From: Sycon ciliatum
Taxonomy: Eukaryota; Porifera; Calcarea; Leucosolenida; Sycettidae
DNA length: 64,000 bases
Reading direction: 5' to 3'
Assembly (NCBI RefSeq): GCF_964019385.1
Contig: NC_088654.1
Coordinates: 8,925,200 to 8,989,199 of the forward strand
Part shown: positions 17,412 to 53,852 of the stretch, one piece after another
How the letters are laid out: every line of letters starts with the position of its first letter
Numbering within the stretch: the first letter of the stretch is position 1
Made by a program: the position numbers and the translations under genes
Notes under the pieces: model-generated
Told to the model about the DNA's origin: nothing
What the model saw: the letters and a program-made list of their open reading frames with translations, nothing else
Database searches by the model: none

Positions 17412-17665
<254 letters not shown>

Positions 17666-18660: not shown

Positions 18661-18686
18661 TCATTTACGCTGACGTTAACATCATC

Positions 18687-19313: not shown

Positions 19314-19479
19314 CATCGCATCAGTGAAGACGTGACTATCCTCTTGGCTCCGCCAAGATCCTGCTCTTTCTGTAGCCTTTCACTTGGCTGGCCAGCACCC
19401 TCCTAACCGCAAGCTGCTGTGGGTTGTAGTTAACCTCCTAACCGCAAGCTTCTGTGGGTTGTAGTTAAATATAGTAATA

Positions 19480-19971: not shown

Positions 19972-20094
19972 GATAGAGTTTTGCTTGCAGAATTTCTAAG
20001 ACCGCTATCAGTGTAACGTGAAGCTACAAAGGAGAGATTCAGTTGCGCGCATTGTTCCTTGTGTTCGAGAACATCCTCTCATTCGGTGACAGCC

Positions 20095-27347: not shown

Positions 27348-27689
27348 TGTAGTGGGTAGCCGAGTGGTAGGCGCGGTGCAATTAACAAGAATTACTTTTA
27401 TTCTACTTTCAGGTACACACCTGAGATATAATCGTTATTGCAAGAAGAAGCGGCAAAATAAATAACTTTCTCTCCGGTGCTCACCTAGAGGCTGAATCCT
27501 TATTCTTCGAGTTAGCTTTCATTGCTATCCAATCTAATCTAATCTTCTCTTCCTCAAAACAGAAATGCGCAGCCGCTTATATGCAGCAGACGCCGCACGC
27601 TTACATACGGAGATACACTAAATATACGTCAGGCAAAGCTCCGTATTAGTTCCGTACTGTTTCCGTATTGGTCGGGCAGGGATACTACA
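27348..27689 (-). repeat. LTR 1 (downstream LTR)
   Basis: 342 bp, TG...CA ends. On the minus strand it has CATATAAGC as TATA box (about 27571-27580) and AATAAA (about 27385-27390) as polyadenylation signal. The plus-strand word TAGCCGAGTGG fits a pol III A-box, possibly a chance match. Confidence 0.85.
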
Positions 27690-28170
27690 CCCTCCCTTCC
27701 TACAGATAATCACGCCCTCGTGATTTTCAAAAAATTAGTGAAGAGTTACGAACACAGCGTCAACCGGAAGATGGCAAATAATATATCGGAAATGATAACG
27801 TTTAGAGTAGACAGAAGAAATGAACTGATAACAAATCATAAAGTAGAAGCACACCAGGTTCACACGATCTCACGGGGTCAAAAGGGAAAGAACTGTCCTC
27901 CAAATAGGACCTGAAACCACAGCACTCTTGCTGCACTACGCTGGCACAACCCGCCAGGAACATCGCAGTTCAAAAACCGAACTGAATACACTATAGCTAT
28001 AAGGGGCGTTGTCACACACATTGTCCCACGTTAGCTGGGTAAACCGTGGCTCACCATGATCAGACGCCTACCAAACTAAACTGGATTCACACACTCGCAT
28101 AAAGGAAGCCTGAAAAGAACAGGGAGACTGAAGGAAGAGAGGAAAGAAAATGCCATACCTGGAATCAGCG

Positions 28171-28728
28171 TTAGTAACCACGGCGGCGGCTGGAGCTACG
28201 GCGGAGGGCGAGCCAGGTTTTATCTTCATCTTCGTTGAGCCGGTCACTCAGAGCGACTAGCTCGGCGTTAGACAAATAACCTCCCTCCTCGTCTTGAATC
28301 GTGGTCTTCACATTGTCGATAGCATCGCCTTGCGCGACGTAAAGAGTGATGGTCTAGCCAGGAAGAGTGTTGACGAAAATCTGCATCCCACCACGGAGAC
28401 GAAGTACCAAGTGAATAGTGGACTCCTGCTGAACGTTGTAGTCACTCAGGGTTCGGCCGTCTGCCAACTGCGTGCCGGCGAAAATCAAACGCTGCTGGTC
28501 CTGGGGAATACCCTCCTTGTCTTGGTCAGCAGCCTGCATGTCGTCGTCCTCATCAGCTTCGCCATCACCACCGGTAGTATACATGTAGGTAGCGGGTCGC
28601 TTGGAATCGCCATCGGAGTCTCCAGTGAGTGCCATGCGGAGGGAAGGGTGATCCACGCTAGCACCCTGACTGTGCTGCAAGCTAATAAGCAGGGCCAGGC
28701 CCAGGAAGGCAAGAAACATGATTCTCAT
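28171..28728 (-). pseudogene. Signal-peptide/ubiquitin chimera with internal stop
   Basis: The minus-strand frame from ATG 28728 encodes a clear signal peptide (hydrophobic Leu/Ala-rich core, residues 3-18, then Ser-Gln-Gly-Ala), an acidic linker of about 45 residues, and the C-terminal part of ubiquitin from Asp-Lys-Glu-Gly-Ile-Pro through Leu-Arg-Leu-Arg-Gly-Gly. It continues into a second ubiquitin start (Met-Gln-Ile-Phe-Val) that meets TAG at 28354, where ubiquitin has Lys11. Beyond the stop the frame still reads as ubiquitin-like sequence and then diverges into an acidic and finally Arg/Ser-rich tail ending at 28171. The uninterrupted part is 28354-28728 (124 codons). It is the only cargo of the LTR element, suggesting capture of a host gene. 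Role unknown; it may be dead or a secreted peptide. Confidence 0.75.
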
Positions 28729-28821
28729 CTTGATTCGTCGCACGAAGCTGCGGGTTGAGCCATGGGGGTCTGGGGTCGAATCACGTTGTTTTATTTTACA
28801 AAAACACACCGCTGCCACCAA

Positions 28822-29154
28822 TGTAATGGGTGGTAGGCGCGGTTGAATTCAACAGTAGGTAGCCGAGTGGTAGGCGCGGTGCAATTAACAATAATTACTT
28901 TTATTCTACTTTCAGGTACACACCTGAGATATAATCGTTAATGAAAGAAGGAACGGCAAAATAACTGACTTTCTCTCCGGTGCTCACCTGGAGGTTGAAT
29001 AGCTCGTTATTATCAAAATCTCATCTTTTTCTAAACAGAAATGCGCAGCCGCTTATATGCAGCAGACGCCGTACGCTTACATACGGAGATACACTAGGCA
29101 AAGCTCCGTATTAGTTCCGTACTGCTTCCGTATTGGTCGGGCAGGGATACTACA
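28822..29154 (-). repeat. LTR 2 (middle LTR)
   Basis: 333 bp, closely related to LTR 1 and LTR 3, with a partial internal duplication of TGGTAGGCGCGG near its plus-strand left end. Its right end CA forms part of the Polinton target CACCCT. Confidence 0.85.
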
Positions 29155-29158
29155 CCCT

Positions 29159-29966
29159 AGTAGTAAGTGCGGGGCGGGTTCTGGCCCACTTTTTGACCTT
29201 TGACCTTTGGGCCAAATAAGGCACACTGTGTCGGTCGTGCTTGGTCTGGCCCGCGGGACCCCCCAGAGTTTGACCTTTGACCCCTGGCATGCCATAAATG
29301 TGCCATAAAGGTTCTTTTCCGTGGCGAACGTGCACTTGTGTACGTTCGGTGCATTCGCACCGGGGAGTAGTAAAATACGTACTATTCCCTGATTTGCACA
29401 TCGTAGATGCAGTGACATGATACAGTACAGTTTCTTTGGTAATGGTGTTTCATTTACTTTTGTATTTTCAGTTCGTTTTCTTTGTATTTAACTCCTCATT
29501 GTTTTTTTACCAGGCGTGGGCCATCCCCTGACTTCATAGGTGCCAAACATTTTACGTTTTTCATTTCTATTTTTTGTACTACAGTATACATGGGTCCTTG
29601 CTGCTGCAGAGTGCTTTCGGTAACTATCCGTGGTGTGTTTGGCTACTGTTCTGCTTCAGTACCCCCCCCCCCACTTTTTCATGATTTTGAATGTTATCGT
29701 TTTCTCGGATTCCGGTTTTCCACTCTGTTATGTTCGAATCCATAGTCTGTTTAGTCTGTACACGATTTGTGCGGAACTTCTCATTGTTTTTTTTTGTTTT
29801 TGTTTTTTTTTTACCAGGCGTGGGCCATCCCCTGATCATAGGTGCCAAAGACTATGCTTCTCTTGCTGTCTGATCACATGCGACGTCATCATTATGTGAT
29901 TTGTTTTCAATCCTCCGCCATGGCAAATTGTGTTTTGTTCGCCCGTAAAAGAGGCTTTTACAGACT

Positions 29967-30001
<35 letters not shown>

Positions 30002-31229
30002 AGTACTACAGTATACATGTAGTATCAAGAGTAAAAAAAAAAAAAAAAAAAGACATATTGCGCATGCGTGCATACGCACGCGGAGCGTATGACCTTCAGA
30101 GACCCTGCTTGCGGGAAAGACGCAGTGCAACACAAGGTGTACTAGTACACGTGTCATTATACTACTCCCTGATTCGCACTTCGTAGATGTGCAGCAAACA
30201 AGTTACAGTCCATTCATCGGAAACTGGCCCGCTGGCTTTTGAAAGTCGGATTTGGGCCAAATTGAGGATCAAAAACCCACTTTAAATCTCAAAATTCTGG
30301 GTTTTGGATCTGCTTCTCCATACATTTTGCCATGGCATACCTGTCCTAATTGTGTAAAACCTGGCTGAATTTCTATTTCCCTGTTCTTGGACTTTTCTGG
30401 CCTCAAATGTGGCAAGGAGTAATCGCACGAGTCACACGATGCAGGATGTACTGTTGTTTTCACGATATCTACAACTATGTGAGAGAGACACCAAAAAGTT
30501 AGGGTGCCAGTTTCCAATGAATGGACTGTAGTTCACGTGCCATGCACTCGTTTTATTCGCACATCGTAGATGTGCACTGACAAGTTGCCCATACAGAGCA
30601 TGCCTAATCGGCTTTTCGATCGGTTAAGAGAATGTTCAAATTCGGCCATATTATGAGCTCCAAGATCAGAATTCGGCTCAACATAGTACTTGAAGTCACC
30701 GTTCCCATTACGTCATGTACATTTACATACACCCTGTTGAAGCACTGAAGCATCGGTTTTCGGCGAATTCAACATGCAAATTTTTGAAAATTCGGCGAAA
30801 AGATGGGTAATTTCTTCAAAACCACTGTTTTCGGCGAATTTTTCGCCCGGCCGATTAGGGAAATGCCTACTGTCCATGCAGGTCCATTAGATGCAAATTT
30901 CTATTTTGATCAGGATACAGTTAGAATCAACCGGCTCCGCCCGCAGTATCATGCATCAAAACAATTATTGAAGGGGTGTCACAGTGAAGCAGTGTTGCTA
31001 CGCACCGCAAATCCCCTCTGCACTGCACCGAATCTATACTGGAGAATGCAGAGTGACCAGCAAAGAGTCACAACCCGCAGGTATCCAGTCACACTAAGGC
31101 AAATCCACCATTCCCCACATATTCACTGTAACAAACACAATACTGTTTACTATAATGCACTTTTATTTAAATGGACTTGGATGAGTCTGTAGAAGAGAAC
31201 ACAATGCACGCACACGCACGCATGCGCGG

Positions 31230-31277
<48 letters not shown>

Positions 31278-31716
31278 CTAGGTTATAGTGTTATACACAT
31301 ATCTAGGGTTTAGGAAGCACGAGAATGTGTCGAAGCACCCACACATACCCCTTCATGCAGTGTACTTCAGTTGCCCAACACATTACGACTGCACAGGACC
31401 ATCACAAAACACATTACGACTGCTATAGCACAGGACCATCACAAAACACTACACACTGTTACTACACTACACACACAGTTACTACACTACGCCTGTTACA
31501 AGTACTTACAAATAATTTTGAAACAAATGGCACACCCCGAAGACGGCAGCTCCAGACCTTCATACATCATCATCTGTAAAACAAAACATGAGCGCACACA
31601 AACACTATTAGTGTCACGAATACGAAAGCAGGGTAAGACAAGAGGATACGAAACAAGTAAGTATCGCTATAACGAGGGGGGGGGGTAAGTATACATGTAG
31701 ACAGAGCAGTGCTTAC
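29159..31716. other. Outer part of left arm, no gene seen
   Basis: This part holds short palindromes of the AGTAGTAAAATAC type (29364), poly-A tracts (29969-29999, 30033-30050), two diverged copies of a CAGGCGTGGGCCATCCCCTGA unit (about 29512 and 29815), three copies of a box around CGCACATCGTAGATGTGC (29394, 30175, 30558), a mariner-like MITE and a CA microsatellite (31229-31276). The 129-codon ORF at 30803 has no recognisable features. Confidence 0.6.
30206..30528. mobile_element. Mariner-like MITE in left arm
   Basis: 323 bp with about 23-bp terminal inverted repeats starting CAGTCCATTCAT, flanked by TA on both sides (30204-30205, 30529-30530). TA target and size fit a Tc1/mariner MITE. 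The mirror copy is at 42686-43008. Confidence 0.8.
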
Positions 31717-32146
31717 TTACAGGGTCCTAATACGCTCCACGGCATCCCGGTAGTCGGACTGCAACAGCAGCCCGACCTGGCGACCCTCCCAGTAACGGGT
31801 TAGATGGGCCGCACCCGCCAGGTGGGCGACCACGGCTGGGCTTCCCACCAGCCTTTCTCCACTGTAAAAACGAAAGAAACCGCAGAAAGCACAGTGTCAT
31901 AGAGCTCTTTTGTTGGGGGAGAGAGCTAGGAGCACTGCACACTTACCATTTGTCACAATATATGATGAGAAAGAGGCGGCGCTTGACGCACCGCCTCAGG
32001 TGCTGAAACAGGGTTATTACCCCTGACATTCGAACGCTACAGTGACAAGTGAAAGCCATTTGGACTGTAATGATACTGAAGTGAAGGTGTGAACCGCAAA
32101 GCAAGGACTTTACCTTCTTCCTGTCGAATTCGCTCCCCAGCTGCAT
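31717..32146 (-). CDS. Small zinc-finger-like protein, two exons (left-arm copy)
   Basis: Exons 32146-31947 and 31861-31717 are separated by an 85-bp intron with GTAAGT donor and TTTACAG acceptor. The spliced frame is 114 residues. From the inner Met the protein has Phe-Thr-Cys-His-Cys ... His, and across the splice Tyr-Cys-Asp-Lys-Cys-Gly ... His ... His, resembling two degenerate C2H2-type fingers, then an amphipathic helix and stop. The reading frame continues unbroken only if this splice is used, which supports it. It is divergent from the RING gene 175 bp away. Function unknown. Start could be the inner Met. Confidence 0.5.
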
Positions 32147-32187
32147 ACCGACATCATCCGCTAAAACCCAATCATACCAAGTAACGC

Positions 32188-32208
32188 AAAGGTCATCAGT
32201 TGACCTTT
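32188..32208. promoter_or_regulatory. Palindromic AGGTCA pair between divergent genes (left arm)
   Basis: AAAGGTCA and TGACCTTT are separated by 5 bp, in the gap between the zinc-finger and RING genes. AGGTCA is the nuclear-receptor half-site; a regulatory role is inference. The mirror is at 41011-41031. Confidence 0.35.
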
Positions 32209-32321
32209 TTGACTTTTCAACTCTTATCCAAAACCACCAAGAGGAAAAAACCAGGATGAAGAAGACGTCAGTTGTAGAAGCGTTTGTGGAGGAGTTGTTA
32301 CATTATTCTCAGTAAATAGAT

Positions 32322-33029
32322 ATGGCTGATACATTCGGTGTAGACGTGGACGACCGGTCGTGGTCTCTCACCACGGGTCCTTTACTAATAGAAAGGCGGA
32401 CGCCAATAAGAACTGTTGTGGAGGTGGCAGATCAAAACGCGCAGCAAGAAATTTGGCACGTCGATGGTAGACTCCATCAGGAGGACGGACCAGCTCTTGT
32501 TGATAGTAGGGGAGTGTCCGCCTGGTGCTATGAAGGTCGCCTTCATCGCGTTAATGAACGGGCTTGGATAGGACGGGGTAGCATCGAGTACTACCTCAAC
32601 GGTGTCCGTCATAGAGCCGGCGGTCCTGCAGTCAGTTATTGTGACGCCACATGCTGTATTCTACGGTGGTATCACCAAGGAAGGCTCCACAGGGAGAATG
32701 CGCCAGCGGTTATACACAGGGAAGGTAACAATCGTGGACGGGAGTGGTACCGATACAACCTTTGGCATAAGGAAGATGGACCTGCTTTCATCTCTCAGGA
32801 GGAGGAGGGTGTCTATCAGTGGTACCTCAACGGGGTGTATTACGGTGACCACCATCAAGACCAGGCAATACACCCCATGGAGCTGCAGTATATTGATGTA
32901 GTGCCTACTAAGGTAGACTCGTCAGCAATAAGTCATGAGTCCAGTTGTGTGATTTGTCAGGATGCCCTGGATCGTCCTCTATCCAAGTTGGAGTGTGGTC
33001 ATGAATTTCACTTCCACTGTATCAAGTAG
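32322..33029 (+). CDS. LHREDGPA-repeat protein with C-terminal RING finger, interrupted by amber codon (left-arm copy)
   Basis: 235 codons to the first stop. Five or six repeats of the form Trp-x3-Gly-x-Leu-His-Arg-x-Asp-Gly-Pro-Ala (about residues 44, 66, 88, 113, 138 and 160) resemble the MORN-like repeats of some large DNA viruses and phages. A RING finger begins with Cys-Val-Ile-Cys near 209 and continues Cys-Gly-His-Glu-Phe-His-Phe-His-Cys. TAG at 33027 interrupts it, but the same frame continues with Trp and Cys-Pro-Thr-Cys-Arg to a stop at 33110, completing a C3H2C3 pattern. Either the last Cys pair is lost or the amber is read through. A ubiquitin-ligase role is inferred from the RING. 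Both arms carry the same stop. Confidence 0.75.
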   Translation: MADTFGVDVDDRSWSLTTGPLLIERRTPIRTVVEVADQNAQQEIWHVDGRLHQEDGPALVDSRGVSAWCYEGRLHRVNERAWIGRGSIEYYLNGVRHRAGGPAVSYCDATCCILRWYHQGRLHRENAPAVIHREGNNRGREWYRYNLWHKEDGPAFISQEEEGVYQWYLNGVYYGDHHQDQAIHPMELQYIDVVPTKVDSSAISHESSCVICQDALDRPLSKLECGHEFHFHCIK

Positions 33030-33196
33030 TGGATCAGTTCTGCCCCCAGCCCAACTTGCCCAACCTGCCGCTACTCCATGACTGCTGAGGACTTGGTTGA
33101 GTTCTTGTAGTAATACATGACACAGCTGCATGTAGGCGACTACGAATGACCAGTCATGTGCTACAGACGGACACGGACACGCCACCCTAAGTAGCC

Positions 33197-33421
33197 ATGA
33201 GCGGCTCTTTGGACAAGGGCAACAAAGCACCCCGTGGGCGGCCAAGGTTGACACTAGCCACAAGTCTGCTCGCTCAGTTGAATAAGCTGGGTGTGCCCAT
33301 GAAGACCATGGAAGACCTTTCCAGGTGCCGGCAACAAGCAGAGGATAAGACAGACTGGAAGAAACTGTGCAGCTCGACACTCGAGGACAAATCAGTATCA
33401 GCAGCTACTACACGTTGCTGA
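33197..33421 (+). pseudogene. LINE-like reverse-transcriptase tail fragment (left arm)
   Basis: 74 codons with Arg-Gly-Arg-Pro-Arg-Leu-Thr followed by a helix and Asp-Lys-Thr-Asp-Trp-Lys-Lys-Leu, the spacing of LINE C-terminal tails. No catalytic part is near. Mirror copy at 39798-40022. Confidence 0.35.
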
Positions 33422-33555
33422 TGATGCTCACAAGACAGAAGTGGGAAAAACACTGAATTTCTTTATTTAGTGCTCAACTACGCGAAATGTGTTATTATTA
33501 TTATACATGTTCAACTGTACTCAGTCTGGCTGACTGCCATTCTCTACCACACATT

Positions 33556-34699
33556 ACCGGACACTGTTGTGGTTGTCGTCGTTATCGTCGTCGTCATTGT
33601 TGATGTTGTTGTCGGTTGTTGTCGTCGTTATCGTCGTCGTTGTTGATTTTGTTGGTGGCTGTTGCTGTCGGTTGTTGTCGGTTGTTGTCGTTTGCTGTTG
33701 GTTGTTGTTGGTTGTTGTTGATGTTGTTGTCGGTTGTTGTCGTCGTTATCGTCGTCGTTGTTGATGTTGTTATTAGTTGTTGCTGTCGGTTGTTGGTTGT
33801 TATTGGTTGTTCCTGTCGGTTGTTGGTTGTTATTGTTGATTGTTGTCGGTTGTTGTTGGCTGTTGGATGTTGTTATTAGTTGTTGCTGTCGGTTGTTGGT
33901 TGTTATTGGTTGTTGCTGTCGGTTGTTGGTTGTTATTGTTGATTGTTGTCGGTTGTTGTTGGCTGTTGGATGTTGTTGTCGGTTGTTGTCGGTTGTTGTT
34001 GGTTATTGTTCGTTGTTGTTGGTTGTTGTTGGGCGTTGTTGGTTGTTGTCGGTTGTTGTCAGGTGTTGGTGGTTGTTGTTGGTTGTTGTTGTCGGTTGTT
34101 GTCGGTTGTTGGATGTTGTTGTCGGTTGTTGGGTGTTGTTGTCGGTTGTTGGGTGTTGTTGTCGGTTGTTGGGTGTTGTTGTCGGTTGTTGGGTGTTGTT
34201 GTTGGTTGGTGTTGGTTGGTGTTGGTTGTTGTTGGTTGTTGTCGGTTGTTGTCCGTTGTTGTTGGTTGTTGTTGGTTGTTGTTGGCTGTTGTTGGTTGTT
34301 GTTGTTTGTTGTTGTCGGTTGTTGGTTGTTGTTGTGTGTTGTTGTTGGTTGTAGTTGATTGTTGTCAGTTGTTGTTGGTTGTTGGATGTTGTTGTCGGTT
34401 GTTGTCGGTTGTTGTCGGTTGTTGTTGGTTGTTGTTGGTTGTTGTTGGCTGTTGTTGGTTGTTGTTGGTTGTTGTTGGTTGTTGTTGTTTGTTGTTGTCG
34501 GTTGTTGGTTGTTGTTGTTGTTTGTTGTTGTTGTTGGTTGTAGTTGGTTGTTGTCAGTTGTTGTTGGTTGTTGTATGTTGTTGTCGGTTGTTGTCGGTTG
34601 CTGTCGGTTGTTGTCGGTTGTTGTTGGCTGTTGTTGGCTGTTGTTGGCTGTTTTTGGTTGTTGTTGGTTGTTGTCGGTTGTTTTTGGTTGTTGTGTTTT
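33556..34699. repeat. 1.1-kb TTG-rich minisatellite (left arm)
   Basis: Degenerate 11-bp units of the type GTTGTTGTCGG/GTTGTTGTTGG. Because 11 is not a multiple of 3 and stops are rare, all frames are open, giving long artefactual Gln/Asn/Thr/Pro or Val/Cys/Leu ORFs. The mirror copy is at 38520-39663. Confidence 0.95.
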
Positions 34700-35124
34700 A
34701 ATCGTTATTTTGTTCATTATCCAGGAGGATGTTGCTATGATCTAGTACCATTTTTTCACATATATGAGACAAGTTTGTGTAACGTTAGTGTGACGTGGGG
34801 TATGCTGATTGGATGTGAGGTGGTGAGAGTATGCTGATTGGCGATAACAATTAGTGGAAGGGATAAAGTAATGCGCTGCTTGTGCAGCGTAGCCAAACAC
34901 ATGGTCAGTGGGAAACACCCTAGTACAATAAATAAAATAATAATAACATGAATTGCCACCGGCACTTGAAAGACTCGAGCCCCGCCACCTTGTTCAAATC
35001 GGACTTGGTAGCTTCATACTGGAACTTAATCTTCTTCTTTTTGAGGTATGACCGTACAAAACGCGCTTGGAATTTTTCATTTTATTTTATTTTTTATTTA
35101 TTTTATTTTTTCATTGCAACTTTT

Positions 35125-35484
35125 TTAGCAGATATCAACTTTTTTAGCAGACTCGTGAAACAACGGTGAATCTGGAACGCATAAATGGTCCATGTCAAAG
35201 GCATGACGAGTCTCGAAGTCTTCACATTCATGATGGAACCTTGTCATGATTGACGCATTCCTTAATGGTGCGCACATGAAATCACCCTGGCTCATCTTTT
35301 CCAACTCCATTCTTTTCACATCCTGCAACCCATACCCTACTAGTATCAGTGGGGATGCTAGAATCAGAAGAGGCAAGGCAGCACTCTTCCGTGGATGTAT
35401 TACTCGACACAACACCACCCATACTTGTTTTCTAGAAGTTTTGACTATAATGATATATTGCAGCAGGAAGTAGTATACAGTCAA
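35125..35484 (-). CDS. Hypothetical small membrane protein (left-arm copy)
   Basis: 119 codons, one hydrophobic segment around residues 35-54 (Leu/Ile/Ala-rich), then a polar, His/Asp/Glu-rich C-terminal half with five cysteines in the full chain. The right-arm copy (37735-38094) keeps the frame and differs by one residue (Leu versus Ser). No family recognised; low confidence. Confidence 0.3.
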   Translation of the reverse strand: MTVYYFLLQYIIIVKTSRKQVWVVLCRVIHPRKSAALPLLILASPLILVGYGLQDVKRMELEKMSQGDFMCAPLRNASIMTRFHHECEDFETRHAFDMDHLCVPDSPLFHESAKKVDIC

Positions 35485-35544
35485 ATAGGATAGGATAAGA
35501 ATGAATGATCAACTGTCTGATAAAGAATGCAGTTCATTAAAGAC

Positions 35545-36287
35545 TTATTGGAAGGTCTCTACCAGCTGATCGTCATGTTGGACGGCGACACTGCATAATG
35601 ATATGAAGCTCTCAGTTAGCTGTTTCAGTTCCGTGGTAGAAAGTGTCATGTGTGCGTCCAGAGAACGATGAAAACATCTGGGGTCCACGTTGATGCAGAC
35701 GATTGGAGCAACAGCAAGACGTACCTTCAACGCTTGCTCGTCAATGTCGAGGGAGACTGCCCCGGGGTAGATGAAAACATCTTGTTCCACATCCAGTTCG
35801 AACCCGCTGGTCGGGACTAGCTTGCTTTCACCGTTGATGTACACCCGACATTGACCGTAGGACGAACGTGATGGGTAGAAGTTGGTCTTGATCTTCTCCA
35901 CACGTCCTCTTCGGAGAGTGTCACGGAGCGATGGACAAGTCTTGATCAAGTTCGTAATGATGAACTCAGTGGACTCATTCAGTTCGATGTAAACCTGTCC
36001 TTGAGCATCTTTTTGCGAGCTGTTGCCGTACTACCACAGGCTGGTAGAGCTCCTGAAGGGAAGTACATCTTATAACCAGGCTTGTAGAAGGATCTACCTG
36101 ATGACTTGTAGGACAGTTGCATGTCCTCCTGAAACCCATCTACCACAATCTCTTTGTGGAGCTTGGTAGGAGCAGGTGACACATAGAGACGCTTAGCCGG
36201 TACTGCCTTCGAAGAGAGCACAACTTGAGGAGGGTCAGCAGGAAGAGCGGAATTCTTCCTCACCCGCCGCTCGTATAGGTTATCCAT
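35545..36287 (-). pseudogene. Homologue of the Polinton gene at 3-560, frame-broken
   Basis: The upstream segment runs from Met at 36287 to a stop at 35979. The downstream segment, in another frame, ends at 35545 and is homologous to the region-1 gene along about 130 residues. The frames change near 36009-36014, at a run of five T on the plus strand. The N-terminal 90 residues are basic and Pro/Ser-rich. The break may be a real mutation, an assembly indel at the homopolymer, or programmed frameshifting; the site is not a classic eukaryotic slippery heptamer. Homology ties this element to the Polinton lineage. Function unknown. Confidence 0.7.
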
Positions 36288-36367
36288 CTTCCAGGAAGCG
36301 AAGGGAGAACAACTCATCAGCACTGTATTCGATGAACGAATGACTCGACTACAGGACAACCACCCGT

Positions 36368-36555
36368 ATTTATACAAGGCAGAGACGGAGGCGGGTTGAA
36401 GTGATAAAATATGTGTCAGCTAGGTCAACCAATCACCATCAAGCCCGCCAAAAACATTTGACCACTCAGCATTGAGCCCACCAAAAACATTTGACCACCC
36501 AGCATCAAACCCGCCAAAAGCATTTTGTCCAATCAGCGGCATGCCCACCAAAATC
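36368..36555 (-). promoter_or_regulatory. TATA box and four E2F-like repeats upstream of spacer gene
   Basis: Reading leftward, TATAAATA (36368-36375) lies about 85 bp before the Met at 36287. Upstream are four 34-bp repeats with core CCCGCCAAAA or CCCACCAAAA (about 36446, 36478, 36511, 36545 on the plus strand). The complement TTTTGGCGGG is the classical E2F site. A further GGCGGG is at 36392. Confidence 0.55.
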
Positions 36556-36560
36556 ATATC

Positions 36561-37341
36561 TCATCTTAAAGATTCCTTACATGATACCGCCACTTTAGTG
36601 AACTGATACAGTATGGAAATAAGATCAGAGTCAAACGTGTGCAAGTTCTGAATCACGTGATCAAGTGAATAGGTTTCCCAACAATAGGCATCAATCAATG
36701 ATGCCATAAGAGATGTATCAGATGGAGATAAAATCAGCAAATTCGTACGCAACGTGGACAGTTGAGAAGAAGACACCATCCTGGTCGACTCCATGAGATG
36801 CAGTACATATAGGAGTGGAAAATGCTGAGGAAGAGGTTTCATGATTCGACTGAACCTCAACCATGATACATTGCTACGAGGTAAGTAGGAACGCAGTTTA
36901 CGTAGTACATCCACATTCGTATCGTATACTATGCAGGATAATGCTATAGCATAGTTTATACTCTTGTACAAACAGGATTTTTTTCATCGCAAGTATCTGC
37001 TCCCGAAGAGTGTGTACGCAAAGCTGATCGGATAAGAGTTCAGTTTTCGAAAGAAAATGCAAAAGATGACGATGCACACCGCTTAACCGCTCATGTACCG
37101 CGTAAGGCTTCTTCATCAAACTACATCTCCTATGCACATCATCTTCAGGGAAGTAAATCACCGCCATGACAAGTCCACACGAAGAACACACGTATCTTCC
37201 TTCATGTAAAACATGATCAAGATGTTGACACTGTTTTTCCTCCCCGTATTGCTCTTTTTCTTCTTCTTCTTCATCCTTCTCATGAAGTCTCCTTTCACGT
37301 ACATAAGCAGGTAAGATCTTAAATTCAGAATTCATCTTCAC
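36561..37341 (-). pseudogene. TFIIB-like transcription factor, frame-broken
   Basis: The 5' ORF (37341-36898) has a Glu-rich N-terminus and then a zinc-ribbon-like stretch: Cys-x-His, about 12 residues, Val-Cys-Ser-Ser-Cys-Gly-Leu-Val, the hallmark of TFIIB-family ribbons. It is followed by an acidic linker and helices. The 3' ORF (ending 36561) continues in another frame with helices resembling a cyclin-fold repeat (Tyr-Ala-Ile-Ala-Leu-Ser-Cys-Ile-Val-Tyr-Asp). The frames change at a run of seven A on the coding strand (plus 36978-36984). A TTATATAAAG box lies about 46 bp upstream of the start. Large DNA viruses often encode TFIIB-like factors; in a Polinton derivative this is unusual. The family call is motif-based. 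Confidence 0.6.
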
Positions 37342-37385
37342 ACCAACATCCTCATTATGACACTATATCCAGCATGATATCTACT

Positions 37386-37395
37386 TTATATAACC
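37386..37395 (-). promoter_or_regulatory. TATA box of TFIIB-like gene
   Basis: TTATATAAAG on the minus strand, about 46 bp before the Met at 37341. Confidence 0.45.
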
Positions 37396-37734
37396 AATCC
37401 TATCCTCATACCCTCTCCAACACGTCGGAGAGGATATGAGGTCCTCTACCCCAATGGTTGTACCTGATAATTGCCCTGGAAAAACCCACTATATATCCCT
37501 ACTCACATTTTATTAATTTTTAGTCCACGGCTTTTCTTTAAAGCATCCCCTGATGAGCTACAGACAGCGAAACCGGTCGGGATATGGACTTCACTCTATT
37601 CACTCTACGCATTCTAATAGTTCGACAAACAAATCGCCATGCTGCCCTACTGCGACTATGCCTTGTGCATATTTCTAAACCCTGAACTGCATTCTTTATC
37701 AGACAGTTGATCATTCATTCTTATCCTATCCTAT

Positions 37735-38094
37735 TTGACTGTATACTACTTCCTGCTGCAATATATCATTATAGTCAAAACTTCTAGAAAACAAGTATGG
37801 GTGGTGTTGTGTCGAGTAATACATCCACGGAAGAGTGCTGCCTTGCCTCTTCTGATTCTAGCATCCCCACTGATACTAGTAGGGTATGGGTTGCAGGATG
37901 TGAAAAGAATGGAGTTGGAAAAGATGAGCCAGGGTGATTTCATGTGCGCACCATCAAGGAATGCGTCAATCATGACAAGGTTCCATCATGAATGTGAAGA
38001 CTTCGAGACTCGTCATGCCTTTGACATGGACCATTTATGCGTTCCAGATTCACCGTTGTTTCACGAGTCTGCTAAAAAAGTTGATATCTGCTAA
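37735..38094 (+). CDS. Hypothetical small membrane protein (right-arm copy)
   Basis: Mirror of 35125-35484; one residue differs (Ser for Leu). See that entry. Confidence 0.3.
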   Translation: MTVYYFLLQYIIIVKTSRKQVWVVLCRVIHPRKSAALPLLILASPLILVGYGLQDVKRMELEKMSQGDFMCAPSRNASIMTRFHHECEDFETRHAFDMDHLCVPDSPLFHESAKKVDIC

Positions 38095-38519
38095 AAAAGT
38101 TGCAATGAAAAAATAAAATAAATAAAAAATAAAATAAAATGAAAAATTCCAAGCACGTTTTGTACGGTCATACCTCAAAAAGAAGATGATTAAGTTCCAG
38201 TATGAAGCTACCAAGTCCGATTTGAACAAGGTGGCGGGGCTCGAGTCTCTCAAGTGCCGGTGGCAATTCATGTTATTATTATTTTATTTATTGTACTAGG
38301 GTGTTTCCCACTGACCATGTGTTTGGCTACGCTGCACAAGCAGCGCATTACTTTATCCCTTCCACTAATTGTTATCGCCAATCAGCATACTCTCACCACC
38401 TCACATCCAATCAGCATACCCCACGTCACACTAACGTTACACAAACTTGTCTCATATATGTGAAAAAATGGTACTAGATCATAGCAACATCCTCCTGGAT
38501 AATGAACAAAATAACGATT

Positions 38520-39663
38520 AAACCACAACAACCAAAAACAACCGACAACAACCAACAACAACCAAAAACAGCCAACAACAGCCAACAACAGCCAACAACA
38601 ACCGACAACAACCGACAGCAACCGACAACAACCGACAACAACATACAACAACCAACAACAACTGACAACAACCAACTACAACCAACAACAACAACAAACA
38701 ACAACAACAACCAACAACCGACAACAACAAACAACAACAACCAACAACAACCAACAACAACCAACAACAGCCAACAACAACCAACAACAACCAACAACAA
38801 CCGACAACAACCGACAACAACCGACAACAACATCCAACAACCAACAACAACTGACAACAACCAACTACAACCAACAACAACACACAACAACAACCAACAA
38901 CCGACAACAACAAACAACAACAACCAACAACAGCCAACAACAACCAACAACAACCAACAACAACGGACAACAACCGACAACAACCAACAACAACCAACAC
39001 CAACCAACACCAACCAACAACAACACCCAACAACCGACAACAACACCCAACAACCGACAACAACACCCAACAACCGACAACAACACCCAACAACCGACAA
39101 CAACATCCAACAACCGACAACAACCGACAACAACAACCAACAACAACCACCAACACCTGACAACAACCGACAACAACCAACAACGCCCAACAACAACCAA
39201 CAACAACGAACAATAACCAACAACAACCGACAACAACCGACAACAACATCCAACAGCCAACAACAACCGACAACAATCAACAATAACAACCAACAACCGA
39301 CAGCAACAACCAATAACAACCAACAACCGACAGCAACAACTAATAACAACATCCAACAGCCAACAACAACCGACAACAATCAACAATAACAACCAACAAC
39401 CGACAGGAACAACCAATAACAACCAACAACCGACAGCAACAACTAATAACAACATCAACAACGACGACGATAACGACGACAACAACCGACAACAACATCA
39501 ACAACAACCAACAACAACCAACAGCAAACGACAACAACCGACAACAACCGACAGCAACAGCCACCAACAAAATCAACAACGACGACGATAACGACGACAA
39601 CAACCGACAACAACATCAACAATGACGACGACGATAACGACGACAACCACAACAGTGTCCGGT
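38520..39663. repeat. TTG/CAA minisatellite (right arm)
   Basis: Mirror of 33556-34699, here reading CAACAACCGAC-type 11-bp units. Confidence 0.95.
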
Positions 39664-39797
39664 AATGTGTGGTAGAGAATGGCAGTCAGCCAGACTGAGT
39701 ACAGTTGAACATGTATAATAATAATAACACATTTCGCGTAGTTGAGCACTAAATAAAGAAATTCAGTGTTTTTCCCACTTCTGTCTTGTGAGCATCA

Positions 39798-40022
39798 TCA
39801 GCAACGTGTAGTAGCTGCTGATACTGATTTGTCCTCGAGTGTCGAGCTGCACAGTTTCTTCCAGTCTGTCTTATCCTCTGCTTGTTGCCGGCACCTGGAA
39901 AGGTCTTCCATGGTCTTCATGGGCACACCCAGCTTATTCAACTGAGCGAGCAGACTTGTGGCTAGTGTCAACCTTGGCCGCCCACGGGGTGCTTTGTTGC
40001 CCTTGTCCAAAGAGCCGCTCAT
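39798..40022 (-). pseudogene. LINE-like tail fragment (right arm)
   Basis: Mirror of 33197-33421. Confidence 0.35.
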
Positions 40023-40189
40023 GGCTACTTAGGGTGGCGTGTCCGTGTCCGTCTGTAGCACATGACTGGTCATTCGTAGTCGCCTACATGCAGCTGTGTC
40101 ATGTATTACTACAAGAACTCAACCAAGTCCTCAGCAGTCATGGAGTAGCGGCAGGTTGGGCAAGTTGGGCTGGGGGCAGAACTGATCCA

Positions 40190-40897
40190 CTACTTGATAC
40201 AGTGGAAGTGAAATTCATGACCACACTCCAACTTGGATAGAGGACGATCCAGGGCATCCTGACAAATCACACAACTGGACTCATGACTTATTGCTGACGA
40301 GTCTACCTTAGTAGGCACTACATCAATATACTGCAGCTCCATGGGGTGTATTGCCTGGTCTTGATGGTGGTCACCGTAATACACCCCGTTGAGGTACCAC
40401 TGATAGACACCCTCCTCCTCCTGAGAGATGAAAGCAGGTCCATCTTCCTTATGCCAAAGGTTGTATCGGTACCACTCCCGTCCACGATTGTTACCTTCCC
40501 TGTGTATAACCGCTGGCGCATTCTCCCTGTGGAGCCTTCCTTGGTGATACCACCGTAGAATACAGCATGTGGCGTCACAATAACTGACTGCAGGACCGCC
40601 GGCTCTATGACGGACACCGTTGAGGTAGTACTCGATGCTACCCCGTCCTATCCAAGCCCGTTCATTAACGCGATGAAGGCGACCTTCATAGCACCAGGCG
40701 GACACTCCCCTACTATCAACAAGAGCTGGTCCGTCCTCCTGATGGAGTCTACCATCGACGTGCCAAATTTCTTGCTGCGCGTTTTGATCTGCCACCTCCA
40801 CAACAGTTCTTATTGGCGTCCGCCTTTCTATTAGTAAAGGACCCGTGGTGAGAGACCACGACCGGTCGTCCACGTCTACACCGAATGTATCAGCCAT
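40190..40897 (-). CDS. LHREDGPA-repeat/RING protein with amber codon (right-arm copy)
   Basis: Mirror of 32322-33029 and identical in translation, including the amber stop inside the RING finger. The same frame continues to 40109 with the last Cys-Pro-Thr-Cys of the RING. Confidence 0.75.
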   Translation of the reverse strand: MADTFGVDVDDRSWSLTTGPLLIERRTPIRTVVEVADQNAQQEIWHVDGRLHQEDGPALVDSRGVSAWCYEGRLHRVNERAWIGRGSIEYYLNGVRHRAGGPAVSYCDATCCILRWYHQGRLHRENAPAVIHREGNNRGREWYRYNLWHKEDGPAFISQEEEGVYQWYLNGVYYGDHHQDQAIHPMELQYIDVVPTKVDSSAISHESSCVICQDALDRPLSKLECGHEFHFHCIK

Positions 40898-41010
40898 ATC
40901 TATTTACTGAGAATAATGTAACAACTCCTCCACAAACGCTTCTACAACTGACGTCTTCTTCATCCTGGTTTTTTCCTCTTGGTGGTTTTGGATAAGAGTT
41001 GAAAAGTCAA

Positions 41011-41031
41011 AAAGGTCAACTGATGACCTTT
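41011..41031. promoter_or_regulatory. Palindromic AGGTCA pair between divergent genes (right arm)
   Basis: Mirror of 32188-32208. Confidence 0.35.
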
Positions 41032-41072
41032 GCGTTACTTGGTATGATTGGGTTTTAGCGGATGATGTCGGT

Positions 41073-41502
41073 ATGCAGCTGGGGAGCGAATTCGACAGGA
41101 AGAAGGTAAAGTCCTTGCTTTGCGGTTCACACCTTCACTTCAGTATCATTACAGTCCAAATGGCTTTCACTTGTCACTGTAGCGTTCGAATGTCAGGGGT
41201 AATAACCCTGTTTCAGCACCTGAGGCGGTGCGTCAAGCGCCGCCTCTTTCTCATCATATATTGTGACAAATGGTAAGTGTGCAGTGCTCCTAGCTCTCTC
41301 CCCCAACAAAAGAGCTCTATGACACTGTGCTTTCTGCGGTTTCTTTCGTTTTTACAGTGGAGAAAGGCTGGTGGGAAGCCCAGCCGTGGTCGCCCACCTG
41401 GCGGGTGCGGCCCATCTAACCCGTTACTGGGAGGGTCGCCAGGTCGGGCTGCTGTTGCAGTCCGACTACCGGGATGCCGTGGAGCGTATTAGGACCCTGT
41501 AA
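41073..41502 (+). CDS. Small zinc-finger-like protein, two exons (right-arm copy)
   Basis: Exons 41073-41272 and 41358-41502, intron 41273-41357 (GTAAGT...TTTACAG). Mirror of 31717-32146; the exon lengths (200 and 145 bp) sum to 115 codons including the stop. Confidence 0.5.
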
Positions 41503-41940
41503 GTAAGCACTGCTCTGTCTACATGTATACTTACCCCCCCCCTCGTTATAGCGATACTTACTTGTTTCGTATCCTCTTGTCTTACCCTGCTTTCGTATTC
41601 GTGACACTAATAGTGTTTGTGTGCGCTCATGTTTTGTTTTACAGATGATGATGTATGAAGGTCTGGAGCTGCCGTCTTCGGGGTGTGCCATTTGTTTCAA
41701 AATTATTTGTAAGTACTTGTAACAGGCGTAGTGTAGTAACTGTGTGTGTAGTGTAGTAACAGTGTGTAGTGTTTTGTGATGGTCCTGTGCTATAGCAGTC
41801 GTAATGTGTTTTGTGATGGTCCTGTGCAGTCGTAATGTGTTGGGCAACTGAAGTACACTGCATGAAGGGGTATGTGTGGGTGCTTCGACACATTCTCGTG
41901 CTTCCTAAACCCTAGATATGTGTATAACACTATAACCTAG

Positions 41941-41984
<44 letters not shown>

Positions 41985-42685
41985 CCGCGCATGCGTGCGT
42001 GTGCGTGCATTGTGTTCTCTTCTACAGACTCATCCAAGTCCATTTAAATAAAAGTGCATTATAGTAAACAGTATTGTGTTTGTTACAGTGAATATGTGGG
42101 GAATGGTGGATTTGCCTTAGTGTGACTGGATACCTGCGGGTTGTGACTCTTTGCTGGTCACTCTGCATTCTCCAGTATAGATTCGGTGCAGTGCAGAGGG
42201 GATTTGCGGTGCGTAGCAACACTGCTTCACTGTGACACCCCTTCAATAATTGTTTTGATGCATGATACTGCGGGCGGAGCCGGTTGATTCTAACTGTATC
42301 CTGATCAAAATAGAAATTTGCATCTAATGGACCTGCATGGACAGTAGGCATTTCCCTAATCGGCCGGGCGAAAAATTCGCCGAAAACAGTGGTTTTGAAG
42401 AAATTACCCATCTTTTCGCCGAATTTTCAAAAATTTGCATGTTGAATTCGCCGAAAACCGATGCTTCAGTGCTTCAACAGGGTGTATGTAAATGTACATG
42501 ACGTAATGGGAACGGTGACTTCAAGTACTATGTTGAGCCGAATTCTGATCTTGGAGCTCATAATATGGCCGAATTTGAACATTCTCTTAACCGATCGAAA
42601 AGCCGATTAGGCATGCTCTGTATGGGCAACTTGTCAGTGCACATCTACGATGTGCGAATAAAACGAGTGCATGGCACGTGAACTA

Positions 42686-43008
42686 CAGTCCATTCATTGG
42701 AAACTGGCACCCTAACTTTTTGGTGTCTCTCTCACATAGTTGTAGATATCGTGAAAACAACAGTACATCCTGCATCGTGTGACTCGTGCGATTACTCCTT
42801 GCCACATTTGAGGCCAGAAAAGTCCAAGAACAGGGAAATAGAAATTCAGCCAGGTTTTACACAATTAGGACAGGTATGCCATGGCAAAATGTATGGAGAA
42901 GCAGATCCAAAACCCAGAATTTTGAGATTTAAAGTGGGTTTTTGATCCTCAATTTGGCCCAAATCCGACTTTCAAAAGCCAGCGGGCCAGTTTCCGATGA
43001 ATGGACTG
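42686..43008. mobile_element. Mariner-like MITE in right arm
   Basis: Mirror of 30206-30528, with TA flanks. Confidence 0.8.
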
Positions 43009-43212
43009 TAACTTGTTTGCTGCACATCTACGAAGTGCGAATCAGGGAGTAGTATAATGACACGTGTACTAGTACACCTTGTGTTGCACTGCGTCTTTCC
43101 CGCAAGCAGGGTCTCTGAAGGTCATACGCTCCGCGTGCGTATGCACGCATGCGCAATATGTCTTTTTTTTTTTTTTTTTTTACTCTTGATACTACATGTA
43201 TACTGTAGTACT

Positions 43213-43246
<34 letters not shown>

Positions 43247-44054
43247 AGTCTGTAAAAGCCTCTTTTACGGGCGAACAAAACACAATTTGCCATGGCGGAG
43301 GATTGAAAACAAATCACATAATGATGACGTCGCATGTGATCAGACAGCAAGAGAAGCATAGTCTTTGGCACCTATGATCAGGGGATGGCCCACGCCTGGT
43401 AAAAAAAAAACAAAAACAAAAAAAAACAATGAGAAGTTCCGCACAAATCGTGTACAGACTAAACAGACTATGGATTCGAACATAACAGAGTGGAAAACCG
43501 GAATCCGAGAAAACGATAACATTCAAAATCATGAAAAAGTGGGGGGGGGGGTACTGAAGCAGAACAGTAGCCAAACACACCACGGATAGTTACCGAAAGC
43601 ACTCTGCAGCAGCAAGGACCCATGTATACTGTAGTACAAAAAATAGAAATGAAAAACGTAAAATGTTTGGCACCTATGAAGTCAGGGGATGGCCCACGCC
43701 TGGTAAAAAAACAATGAGGAGTTAAATACAAAGAAAACGAACTGAAAATACAAAAGTAAATGAAACACCATTACCAAAGAAACTGTACTGTATCATGTCA
43801 CTGCATCTACGATGTGCAAATCAGGGAATAGTACGTATTTTACTACTCCCCGGTGCGAATGCACCGAACGTACACAAGTGCACGTTCGCCACGGAAAAGA
43901 ACCTTTATGGCACATTTATGGCATGCCAGGGGTCAAAGGTCAAACTCTGGGGGGTCCCGCGGGCCAGACCAAGCACGACCGACACAGTGTGCCTTATTTG
44001 GCCCAAAGGTCAAAGGTCAAAAAGTGGGCCAGAACCCGCCCCGCACTTACTACT

Positions 44055-44366
44055 CACCCTCCCTTCCTACAGATAATCACGCCCTCGTGATTTTCAAAAA
44101 ATAAGTGAAGAGTTACGAACACAGCGTCAACCGGAAGATGGCAAATTATATCGGAAATGATAACGTTTAGAGTAGACAGAAGAAATGAACTAATAACAAA
44201 TCATAAAGTAGAAGCACACCAGGTTCACACGGTCTCACGGGGTCAAAAGGGGAAAGAACTGTCCTCCAAATAGGACCTAAAGCCACAGCACTCTTGCTGC
44301 ACAACGCTGGCACAACCCGCCAGGAACATCGCAGTTCAAAAACCGAACTGAATACACTACAACTAT
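44055..44366 (-). other. Second internal region of LTR array, part 1
   Basis: This matches 27688-28002 (from the polypurine tract). Interrupted at 44367 by the 2.7-kb repeat and resumed at 47069. No gene. Confidence 0.85.
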
Positions 44367-47355: not shown

Positions 47356-47766
47356 TCATCGTCTTGAATCATGGTCTTCACATTGTCGAGAACATCGCTT
47401 TGCGCGACGTAAAGAGTGATGGTCTAGCCAGGAAGAGTGTTGACGAAAATCTGCATCCCACCACGGAGGCGAAGTACCAAGTGAAGAGTGGGCTCCTGCT
47501 TCCGACTGCGTGCCGGCGAAAATCAAACGCTGCTGGTCTTGGGGAATACCCTCCTTGTCTTGGGCAGCAGCCTGCCTGTTGTCGTCCTCATCAGCTTCGC
47601 CATCACCACCGGTAGTATACATGTAGGTAGCGGGTCGCTTGCAATCGCCATCGGAGTCTCCAGTGTGTGCCGTGCGGAGAGAAGGGTGATCCACGCTAGC
47701 ACCCTGACTGAGCTGCAGGCTAATAAGCAGTGCCAGGCCGAGGAAGGCAAGAAACATGATTCTCAT
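47356..47766 (-). pseudogene. Second signal-peptide/ubiquitin chimera, degenerate
   Basis: The same signal peptide, acidic linker and start of the ubiquitin segment as at 28728 are present. A deletion of about 45 bp within the ubiquitin part then shifts the frame so that the Leu-Arg-Gly-Gly end is lost. Confidence 0.75.
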
Positions 47767-47859
47767 CTTGATTCGTCGCACGGAGCTGTAGCGGGTTGAG
47801 CCATCGGAGTCCGGGGTCGAATCACGTTGTTTTATTTAAAACTACACCGCTGCCACCAA

Positions 47860-49342: not shown

Positions 49343-49594
49343 TAGTTTCTTCCAAGCCATCGAACGGCGTGAAGAAGGTGAATCACAATGAGACTTTTGG
49401 TTACGTGGTCATGACGTTGAACAACAGGTCAAGTAGGGTCCACCGTTACACACAGCGACACATACTTATCATTGCCATGACTAATGTCTATGAGCACTGC
49501 CTGAACACTTGACCTACCACACAGATGCCGATACACGTGTATCGCCAGAGCTCGATCGCCCGCGCCCTGCGACGTGACTGGCGGCGAACAAGGG

Positions 49595-49601
49595 TATAAA
49601 T
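49595..49601 (+). promoter_or_regulatory. TATA box of eIF1A-like gene 1
   Basis: TATAAAT, 182 bp before the ATG, in a context conserved in all copies. Confidence 0.6.
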
Positions 49602-49776
49602 GCGAGCTTACAGCATGTTTAGGGTTCTTTTTCCCAAGTTCACTGGAGTGTAGGATAGAGTTTTGCTTGCAGAATTTCTTAGATCGCTATCAGTGTAACG
49701 CGAAGCTACGAAGGAGAGATTCAGTTGTGCACATTGTGCCTTGTGTTCGAGAACATACTTTCATTCGGTGACAGCC

Positions 49777-50220
49777 ATGCGGCCGAATAAAGGGAAAGGA
49801 GGAAAGAATCGTCGTCAACGCAAGGCGGTCCGCACCGACAGCAATCGAGAGTTAGTATTCAGAAATGATGGCACCGAATACGCACAAGTTACCAAGCTGT
49901 TTGGCTGTTGTCGCCTGGAGGCTTGGTGTTATGATGCTAGAAGCCGGATTTGCCAAATTCGAGGAACGTTAAGGTGGAACAAAGTCTGGATCAAGCAAGG
50001 CGACATCATACTGATTGGCGTCAGGGACTTCCAGGATTCTAGAGCAGATGTAATTATGAAGTACAGCCACGAGGAGGCAATGAAGCTGAAGGCCTATGGA
50101 GAGTTGCCAGAGACAGCCAAGCTCAGCGACAGCACCACGTTCGCACCAGATGCTAAACATTTCGTTGTTTTTGACGACATATCAGAACCTGAAGATGATG
50201 ACAGTGATGCAACGACGTGA
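49777..50220 (+). CDS. EIF1A: eIF1A-like translation initiation factor, copy 1
   Basis: 147 residues, intronless. The basic N-terminal tail (Lys-Gly-Lys-Gly-Gly-Lys-Asn-Arg-Arg) contacts the ribosome in eIF1A. The OB fold follows: Arg-Glu-Leu-Val-Phe, Glu-Tyr-Ala-Gln-Val, Ile-Arg-Gly, Val-Trp-Ile, Gly-Asp-Ile-Ile-Leu-Ile-Gly, then Leu-Lys-Ala-Tyr-Gly-Glu-Leu-Pro and an acidic C-terminal tail that binds eIF5B. Length equals animal eIF1A (about 144). The first OB loop is unusual: Gly-Cys-Cys-Arg-Leu-Glu-Ala-Trp-Cys-Tyr where animals have Gly-Asn-Gly-Arg-Leu-Glu-Ala-Met-Cys-Phe, and an extra residue follows the Ile-Arg-Gly strand. The Met at 49777 was chosen because it starts the conserved tail. 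Probably a derived paralogue. Confidence 0.92.
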   Translation: MRPNKGKGGKNRRQRKAVRTDSNRELVFRNDGTEYAQVTKLFGCCRLEAWCYDARSRICQIRGTLRWNKVWIKQGDIILIGVRDFQDSRADVIMKYSHEEAMKLKAYGELPETAKLSDSTTFAPDAKHFVVFDDISEPEDDDSDATT

Positions 50221-52306: not shown

Positions 52307-52405
52307 ATTTTATCTAATTTCCTTTGCGTTTACATGTACTTTGTTGAGCCCGTGGTTTCATTTCTGTGTTCTGTTATGATTGGCCTCTGGAAATAATCGG
52401 AGTGG

Positions 52406-52903
52406 ATGTCATTTTTGTCATATGTGTGTGCCTTGTGCAACAGTTTCAAGGCTAGATGCACTTCACATTCGGCGTGCGATCTCGGCGGTAGGGGACCTGA
52501 TAACGTCTTGGTTGGATGGGTAATCAAGGATGATACTACTCGGCACACCAATGTACATGTCAATGCAATTTTTACTTTTTCAGAGCTGCACTGTTTACGG
52601 ACGAATGTGTCTGTTAGAGAGGAAATAAATAGTATTCACAAACAAGTCCCACTTATTGTTTCTGTTCGTAAAAGGAAATTGCAATTTTTTGGTCATATTG
52701 TTCGTTCCGGCTGTTTGTCATTGACTGTTCTTCAGGGTTGTGTTGCTGGAAGTCGTGGCCGAGGCAGGCCCAGAATGTCATGGCTTGATAATATTATTTC
52801 ATGGACTGCACTTGACGTGCAGTCCCTGCTCGCTGCTGCACCGGATCGATTTTTATGGCGCTCGCTTGTTCATACTTGCTCTGTGAAGCCCCGACGGCCT
52901 TAG
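52406..52903 (+). pseudogene. LINE reverse-transcriptase C-terminal fragment (copy 2)
   Basis: Same as 16210-16707 with two residue differences. Confidence 0.7.

Positions 52904-53607: not shown

Positions 53608-53852
<245 letters not shown>

Follow-up and report, generated by a model that had tools for sequence, protein, structure and literature searches.

The stretch of DNA analysed here (64,000 nucleotides, called the window; C13:8925200-8989199 of a genome of 538 Mb in 313 contigs) carries at positions 29159-44054 an element of 14,896 bp with AG...CT ends. We consider it likely to be a non-autonomous satellite of Polintons, built as an inverted dimer, which Polintons would mobilise in trans and fold-back replication would renew. 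This explanation builds on the observed structure of the element, its target-site duplications (TSDs), the termini and genes it shares with Polintons, its copy number and the concerted evolution of its halves, together with mobility enzymes that went untraced in the searches run. An earlier note on this sequence had proposed a class of elements with long terminal inverted repeats (TIRs) around a unique spacer. The window copy, however, is an atypical member of a large family, a derivative with a central deletion, and the typical copy is a gene-bearing giant palindrome that continues through its centre rather than a Polinton with long TIRs and a unique spacer.

A family of palindromes with precise target-site duplications

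The arms of the window element are inverted and 99.81% identical, with 2,146 bp between them (Table 1). Twelve alignment columns differ, six by length (in homopolymers or (CA)n) and six by substitution, the latter confined to the inner 1.2 kb. Realignment of arms and flanks bore out the boundaries, AG/CT ends, arm lengths and 6-bp TSD CACCCT given in the earlier note, as well as the undisturbed paralogous target that it had reported, which is in register on both flanks (28854-29158 matched by 27351-27693, and 44051-44366 by 27683-28000). Since the same element recurs at C2:23366745-23381657 (copy C2) with another TSD, GTGGGA, the arrangement is not due to chance.

A genome search with the outer 501 bp of the arm, as the earlier note had proposed, gave at least 44 matches among the best candidates scored, 40 to the terminal end of the query, the remaining four being short and internal. 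The terminal matches comprised, besides the window pair, 14 further inverted pairs, whose termini lie 8-19 kb from each other, and 10 unpaired ends. End-to-end reading covered ten of these 14 pairs (in two overlapping stretches each for nine copies and in one for C10b), while the other four were read at their ends, C13b also in one 10-kb stretch. A perfect 6-bp TSD, different in each copy, adjoined the AGTAG...CTACT ends of all ten copies read end to end, and three of the remaining four pairs also had one (TTTCGG, CCACGG and CATCGA), making 13 of 14 pairs with perfect and mutually different TSDs.

The mirrored share of a copy, taken as the part of its left half that is mirrored in the right half at 97% or more, was 99.9% in C9 and C8a, 99.8% in C8b, 99.5% in C14, 98.6% in C12 and 98.1% in C7, followed by 86.9% in C10a, 85.6% in both C2 and the window, and 73.8% in C10b. 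The value of 75.0% in C3 reflects a 2.15-kb insertion in one arm, the palindrome being continuous through the centre. Six of the ten copies read end to end are thus palindromic over ~ 98-99.9% of the half-element and C3 is a seventh apart from its insertion, so that the genome holds at least seven palindromes of 14.0-17.2 kb. For comparison, two Polinton-class elements had 314 and 1,571 mirrored bases per 5,900 end bases examined. As in foldback-type elements, long inverted repeats make up most of all 11 copies including that of the window (73.8-99.9% mirrored). Pairing extends to within ~ 20 bases around the axis in C8a, C7 and C9, with ~ 56 unpaired central bases in C12 and C14 and ~ 80 in C8b. 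Each half-element of the palindromic copies (~ 7.0-7.8 kb) consists of one Polinton-type terminus, a cargo of RING gene and minisatellite, and a Polinton left-end module at the axis. The doubling that the earlier note had described for genes of the arms accordingly extends, in palindromic copies, to every gene, those of the centre included.

The 2.1 kb of DNA between the window arms, described earlier as unique, is single in the sub-family formed by the window and C2 copies and nearly so in C10a, but its positions 1 to ~ 1,690-1,870 occur twice, once per half, in the seven palindromic copies. The order of parts in the window centre is hairpin, short piece of the mirrored side, 202-bp filler and right arm. 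The window copy therefore reads as a palindrome from which ~ 1.87 kb of the second centre was deleted and in which the filler was gained, leaving the apparent spacer. Copy C2 has a spacer 100% identical to that of the window and arms 99.7-99.8% identical. It is inserted the other way round, with the differences in its inner arm still in phase with the spacer, so that these two copies gave no sign of a flip-flop.

The two halves of a copy evolve in concert. In a ~ 1-kb arm block, substitutions between left and right numbered 0 in the window, C2, C12, C7, C3, C9 and C8b, 1 in each of C8a, C14 and C10b, and 5 in C10a, a total of 8 over 11 copies. This within-copy difference of 0-0.5% stands against 0.1-7.2% between copies in the same block. 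When the longest inverted alignment of each copy was taken, with indels and the minisatellite included, the sides were 98.7% (C10a) to 99.9% identical. The window also holds an insertion resembling a miniature inverted-repeat transposable element (MITE), repeated exactly in the other arm (42685-43009). Of the stretches examined, only those of the window and C2 copies contain it, and its presence at the same place in both arms of each indicates that sequence passes from arm to arm.

Termini and genes in common with Polintons

The window contains the right-hand part of a further element, the region-1 Polinton, which encodes a clear rve integrase domain and, in the same protein, a match to an adenovirus-type protease that narrowly misses the Pfam cut-off. 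A DNA_pol_B_2 match also misses its cut-off narrowly, and an ATPase match is weak. Its 533-amino-acid open reading frame (ORF) o5 had no library match and is taken, from its size and place, for the major capsid protein. From 15751 onward this Polinton appears to interrupt the C-terminal coding end of a long interspersed nuclear element-like sequence (...LLWNALPGEV..., by eye), which supports 15750 as its true end.

A comparison of termini with this Polinton, suggested in the earlier note and made at its right end, showed agreement at 20 of 26 bases (15725-15750), against 17 of 26 for the next best place in a scan of the window, the likeness ending after ~ 30 bp. Together with the 6-bp TSD, the common 26-bp terminus upholds the assignment to the Polinton type. 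A pattern built from the satellite and region-1 ends, and hence fitted to both, occurred exactly 344 times in the genome and not once when reversed as a control, although it misses variant ends (AGTAGTTAG). The first 100 of these places, classed by eye, comprised 52 of satellite type (with ends GTGCGGGGC), 46 of Polinton type (with the region-1-type ends ACGAGC) and 2 others. Among the same 100, we counted 18 satellite-type pairs, 12.8-21.1 kb apart (median 15.5), and 20 Polinton-type pairs, 0.6-32.9 kb apart (median 17.1). By extrapolation, the genome would contain ~ 90 satellites if the other 244 places are alike.

Two further Polinton-class elements were compared. One, at C1:88639520-88656588 (outer 6 kb of each end read), belongs to the region-1 family, with TSD CACCAC and a TIR of 248 bp. 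It holds o1, a collagen-like ORF, o3, o4, the start of o5, the end of the integrase ORF, polB pieces and a TFIIB-like gene 51% identical to that of the satellite. The other, C2P (C2:49749739-49765989; stretches L039, L041 and L040), has TSD CAGGTG, TIRs of 1,573 bp, a protease-integrase ORF, o3-o6, o8, a collagen-like gene and an ATPase-like ORF, and is either a second, different non-autonomous class or an element with one end copied onto the other.

The left end of C2P carries the satellite's own genes (o1-like, 86.7% identical over the full length; TFIIB-like, 91%). At the DNA level, the satellite centres of C8a, C7, C9 and C14 match L039 in reverse, from ~ 4020 back to 1852-2097, at 86-88% over ~ 2 kb, and satellite positions 34-124 match L039:1673-1784. 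In profile comparison, the spacer gene matched ORF o1 of the region-1 Polinton (ORF 12-557) with an hhalign probability of 96.3 and an E value of 1.8e-9, compared with 0.12-0.63 for the other 14 ORFs. The 33-bp repeats beside the spacer gene scored 37 against those of the Polinton polB, versus 27 for the best of 500 letter shuffles. On sequence comparison, the satellite centre and inner arm thus correspond to a Polinton left-end module with genes resembling o1/single-stranded-DNA-binding protein (SSB) and TFIIB. The element therefore combines the termini of enzyme-bearing Polintons with retained Polinton DNA and genes, as a non-autonomous derivative does. The earlier statement that it lacks Polinton genes stands for integrase and polymerase, which were not found, but not for this module. 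In three of the four halves compared (C8a, C7 and C14), the palindrome axis falls immediately inside C2P's left TIR, and in C8a and C7 it is a small hairpin; the two central genes are directed outward from the axis.

No integrase, polymerase, ATPase or capsid gene was found by Pfam among 14 ORF translations of the element (two overlapping pairs). Neither did tblastn of 15 region-1 ORFs on 20 stretches from 11 satellite copies give a match at 1e-3 (best 0.22 at E ≤ 10), searches that very diverged or split genes could escape. ORFs of at least 120 amino acids in six halves were limited to the RING, o1-like and TFIIB-like genes, minisatellite frames and short unassigned frames, the longest having 354 amino acids. 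Since neither integrase nor polymerase was found, the element is probably non-autonomous, as the earlier note had held, and probably spreads with enzymes borrowed from Polintons of the same genome.

Should the element instead be self-sufficient, a transposase would have to be hidden in one of its three or four genes. Some room for this is left by the o1-like and TFIIB-like proteins, as Pfam, NCBIfam and PDB searches found little and the labels TFIIB-like and SSB-like are weak. We nevertheless consider it unlikely: both central genes also occur in a Polinton-class element with an rve integrase of its own, the 6-bp TSD and termini match Polintons, and the unassigned ORFs of the six halves are short.

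Several of these genes are damaged in the window copy (Table 1). The RING gene is open at 349-350 codons in other copies and the o1-like gene in 8 of the 10 other copies where it was found; a spacer ORF has 97% identity with a EukProt protein bearing a scpid/scgid name. Such names are in use for the calcareous sponge Sycon ciliatum, so the host is probably a sponge. In the database protein P0128, the TFIIB-like ORF continues without a break into the peptide of the minisatellite, apparently because this satellite copy was rearranged and its centre joined to the arm in another way.

Features of the window

Table 1 Positions of the window element, its parts and related features
Feature	Position	Strand	Remarks
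Region-1 Polinton	1-15750		Left end outside window; rve integrase with protease-like N-terminus, polB pieces, ORFs o1 and o5, weak ATPase match
Right terminus of region-1 Polinton	15725-15750	-	
Paralogous empty target site	27688-27693		
Left TSD, CACCCT	29153-29158		
Left arm, 6,378 bp	29159-35536	+	
26-bp terminus AGTAGTAAGTGCGGGGCGGGTTCTGG	29159-29184	+	Polinton-end pattern; 20/26 identical to region-1 Polinton end
251-bp terminal block	29159-29409	+	95-98% identical in 36 terminal matches outside the window and C2 copies
MITE-like insertion	30204-30530		Inverted ends of 36 bp (86%); TA apparently duplicated (by eye)
HREDGPA-repeat and RING-finger gene	32322-33029	+	In-frame TAG at 33027-33029 in window copy
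10-bp minisatellite	33566-34700		Mirror copy at ~ 38521-39655
Small ORF	35125-35508	-	Kept as 122 amino acids in copy C7 (L013)
Inner arm end	35229-35536	-	Homologous to Polinton left-end DNA (83%)
Central 'spacer'	35537-37682	-	Its positions 1-1869 are Polinton left-end DNA, 87% to L039:3705-1856
P0122/Polinton ORF o1 family gene	35545-36419	-	Weakly SSB-like model; frameshifted in window
33-bp promoter-side repeats	36428-36557		Similar to those upstream of Polinton polB N-terminal ORF (14560-14700)
TFIIB-like gene	36561-37341	-	Weak zinc-ribbon match; frameshifted in window; 244 amino acids, open in C7
Pivot hairpin	37404-37441		Same hairpin at palindrome axis in C7 and C8a
Remnant of mirrored right-hand centre	37442-37480		
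202-bp filler	37481-37682		Also in C2 copy; in no other stretch examined
Right arm, 6,372 bp	37683-44054	-	Includes second RING gene, 40112-40897
Right TSD, CACCCT	44055-44060		

Within the filler, 37539-37599 resembles a hammerhead ribozyme core, at a sub-threshold 16.5 bits for Rfam Hammerhead_HH9 (gathering score 52, E 0.3). The element is flanked by two diverged copies of a ubiquitin-domain piece, both on the minus strand, the one at 28354-28821 lying behind a signal-peptide-like start (by eye) and the one at 47356-47781 matching below the Pfam cut-off. Elsewhere in the window, a ~ 4-kb repeat is present at 16111-20201 and 52307-56384 (98.7% identical), the first copy with a Frizzled-type membrane region, and repeats of ~ 2.14 kb with an eIF-1A-like ORF lie at 49428-51180 and 58789-63949.

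Proposed origin, alternatives and known systems

The location of the axis, which in three of four halves is immediately interior to the left TIR, and its hairpin form in two copies, point to a head-to-head fusion of a deleted Polinton. In such an origin, a Polinton would have lost most of its genes and gained the cargo, after which its left end would have snapped back at the hairpin and been copied through, yielding a head-to-head dimer with the same terminus at both ends. From here we infer integration in trans, replication by a helper from both ends and fold-back homogenisation. Polinton integrase and a Polinton-type polymerase would act in trans on the satellite ends, the helper polymerase carrying out protein-primed replication from the two identical termini, while fold-back or panhandle pairing during replication would keep the halves alike. 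Centres residing in chromosomes would subsequently be trimmed, as may have happened in C12, C14, C8b, C10a, C10b and the window.

A number of observations weigh against this explanation or complicate it. No helper was seen moving a satellite. Of the 26 terminal positions, 6 differ between the satellite and region-1, no similarity was found beyond ~ 30 bp (local score 25; best of 500 shuffles 31), and end pairs of mixed class were absent among the 100 listed pattern places, so that a dedicated helper with satellite-type ends may exist. Region-1 polB was not matched in the three stretches of C2P, the closest relative, and the axis of C9, ~ 250 bp further in, falls within the TFIIB-like gene rather than at the left end. 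The palindrome does not continue through the centre in the window copy or in three of the ten others read end to end (C2, C10a and C10b), and C13b (C13:2659880-2675101), alone among the 14 other pairs, has no matching TSD (CTAACA / GGCACA), being possibly a recombinant between two copies. The o1 query in tblastn missed the o1-like genes of the satellite, and a diverged enzyme could escape as well. Ratios of nonsynonymous to synonymous substitution rates (dN/dS) of 0.33-0.62 for the satellite genes are weak evidence that these genes work. Finally, five left-right differences in the inner arms, common to the window and C2 insertions, were kept through transposition. The halves are therefore not rebuilt from one half every time and homogenisation is not total; perhaps it works from the ends inward.

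The same differences bear on whether the palindromes could have formed after insertion, by inverted duplication or gene conversion of the host chromosome outside element replication, which we rate as a little less probable still than a hidden transposase. Changes after insertion do exist (the one-arm insertions of 2.15 kb in C3 and ~ 0.1 kb in C12), and host gene conversion could likewise make halves alike. Yet TSDs adjoin both identical termini in 13 of the 14 other pairs. Left and right stretches were compared for nine copies, and in these the mirror ends at the element ends or at most 7 bp from them. The window and C2 insertions have in common their centre, the MITE-like insertion in both arms and the five differences, which indicates that the dimer itself moved. 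False inverted repeats are known to arise from hairpin reads, but an assembly or read artefact is very improbable, given that 13 of the 14 other pairs have different flanks with a TSD on both sides and that halves differ by private changes and by insertions in one arm. A cut-and-paste element of another DDE superfamily is equally improbable: Ginger2 also has 6-bp targets, which alone are thus not unique, but its ends are TGTNR and its targets AT-rich RTATAY (PMC2836005), whereas the satellite has AGTAG ends and varied targets.

A fuller picture can also be drawn, possible although short of an even chance. The element would be a helper-dependent satellite of an animal Polinton or adintovirus-like element with an obligate self-complementary genome, helper-derived single-stranded-DNA-binding and transcription-factor genes, a RING gene acting on host or helper, and fold-back renewal in the germ line. 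Virophages and P4-like satellites would then have an animal equivalent whose genome architecture is new. In eukaryotic chromosomes, long perfect palindromes are considered very unstable, yet at least seven occur here as members of a mobile family whose TSDs are precise. The family ties Polintons to satellite-style parasitism in a probable animal, and its centres (intact, slightly trimmed, or deleted with filler) form a natural series for the study of how palindromes are made and broken. It also makes testable the proposal that animal Polintons replicate by protein-primed strand displacement yielding fold-back dimers.

With autonomous Polintons/Mavericks the satellite has in common the 6-bp TSD and inverted termini of the form AG...CT, as seen in the window copy and in 13 of the 14 other pairs, and with the local ones the terminus pattern, the 6-bp TSD (seen in C1:88639520-88656588 and C2P), the promoter-side repeats of region-1, and the left-end o1 and TFIIB-like genes (the latter not in the part of region-1 within the window). 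Unlike Polintons, it is a head-to-head dimer with genes doubled in palindromic copies, in which the searches found no integrase, polB, ATPase or o5. Foldback transposons also have very long inverted repeats, but the satellite is ~ 14-15 kb long and gene-bearing, with Polinton termini and a 6-bp TSD. Snap-back or symmetric defective genomes of adenovirus and adeno-associated virus are copy-back inverted dimers with the same terminus at both ends, transient products of passage, whereas the satellite is an inherited and multiplying family. Like P4 and the phage-inducible chromosomal islands, it has few genes and helper-derived parts and would depend on a helper. Endogenous mavirus-like elements (EMALEs) are likewise integrated with TIRs, and the reported regain of TIRs by truncated EMALEs is the same kind of event as the proposed snap-back (PMC8547959). 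In that account, however, EMALE TIRs measure 0.2-2.3 kb and do not form a full palindrome, and virophages encode replication and integration proteins of their own (PMC8547959).

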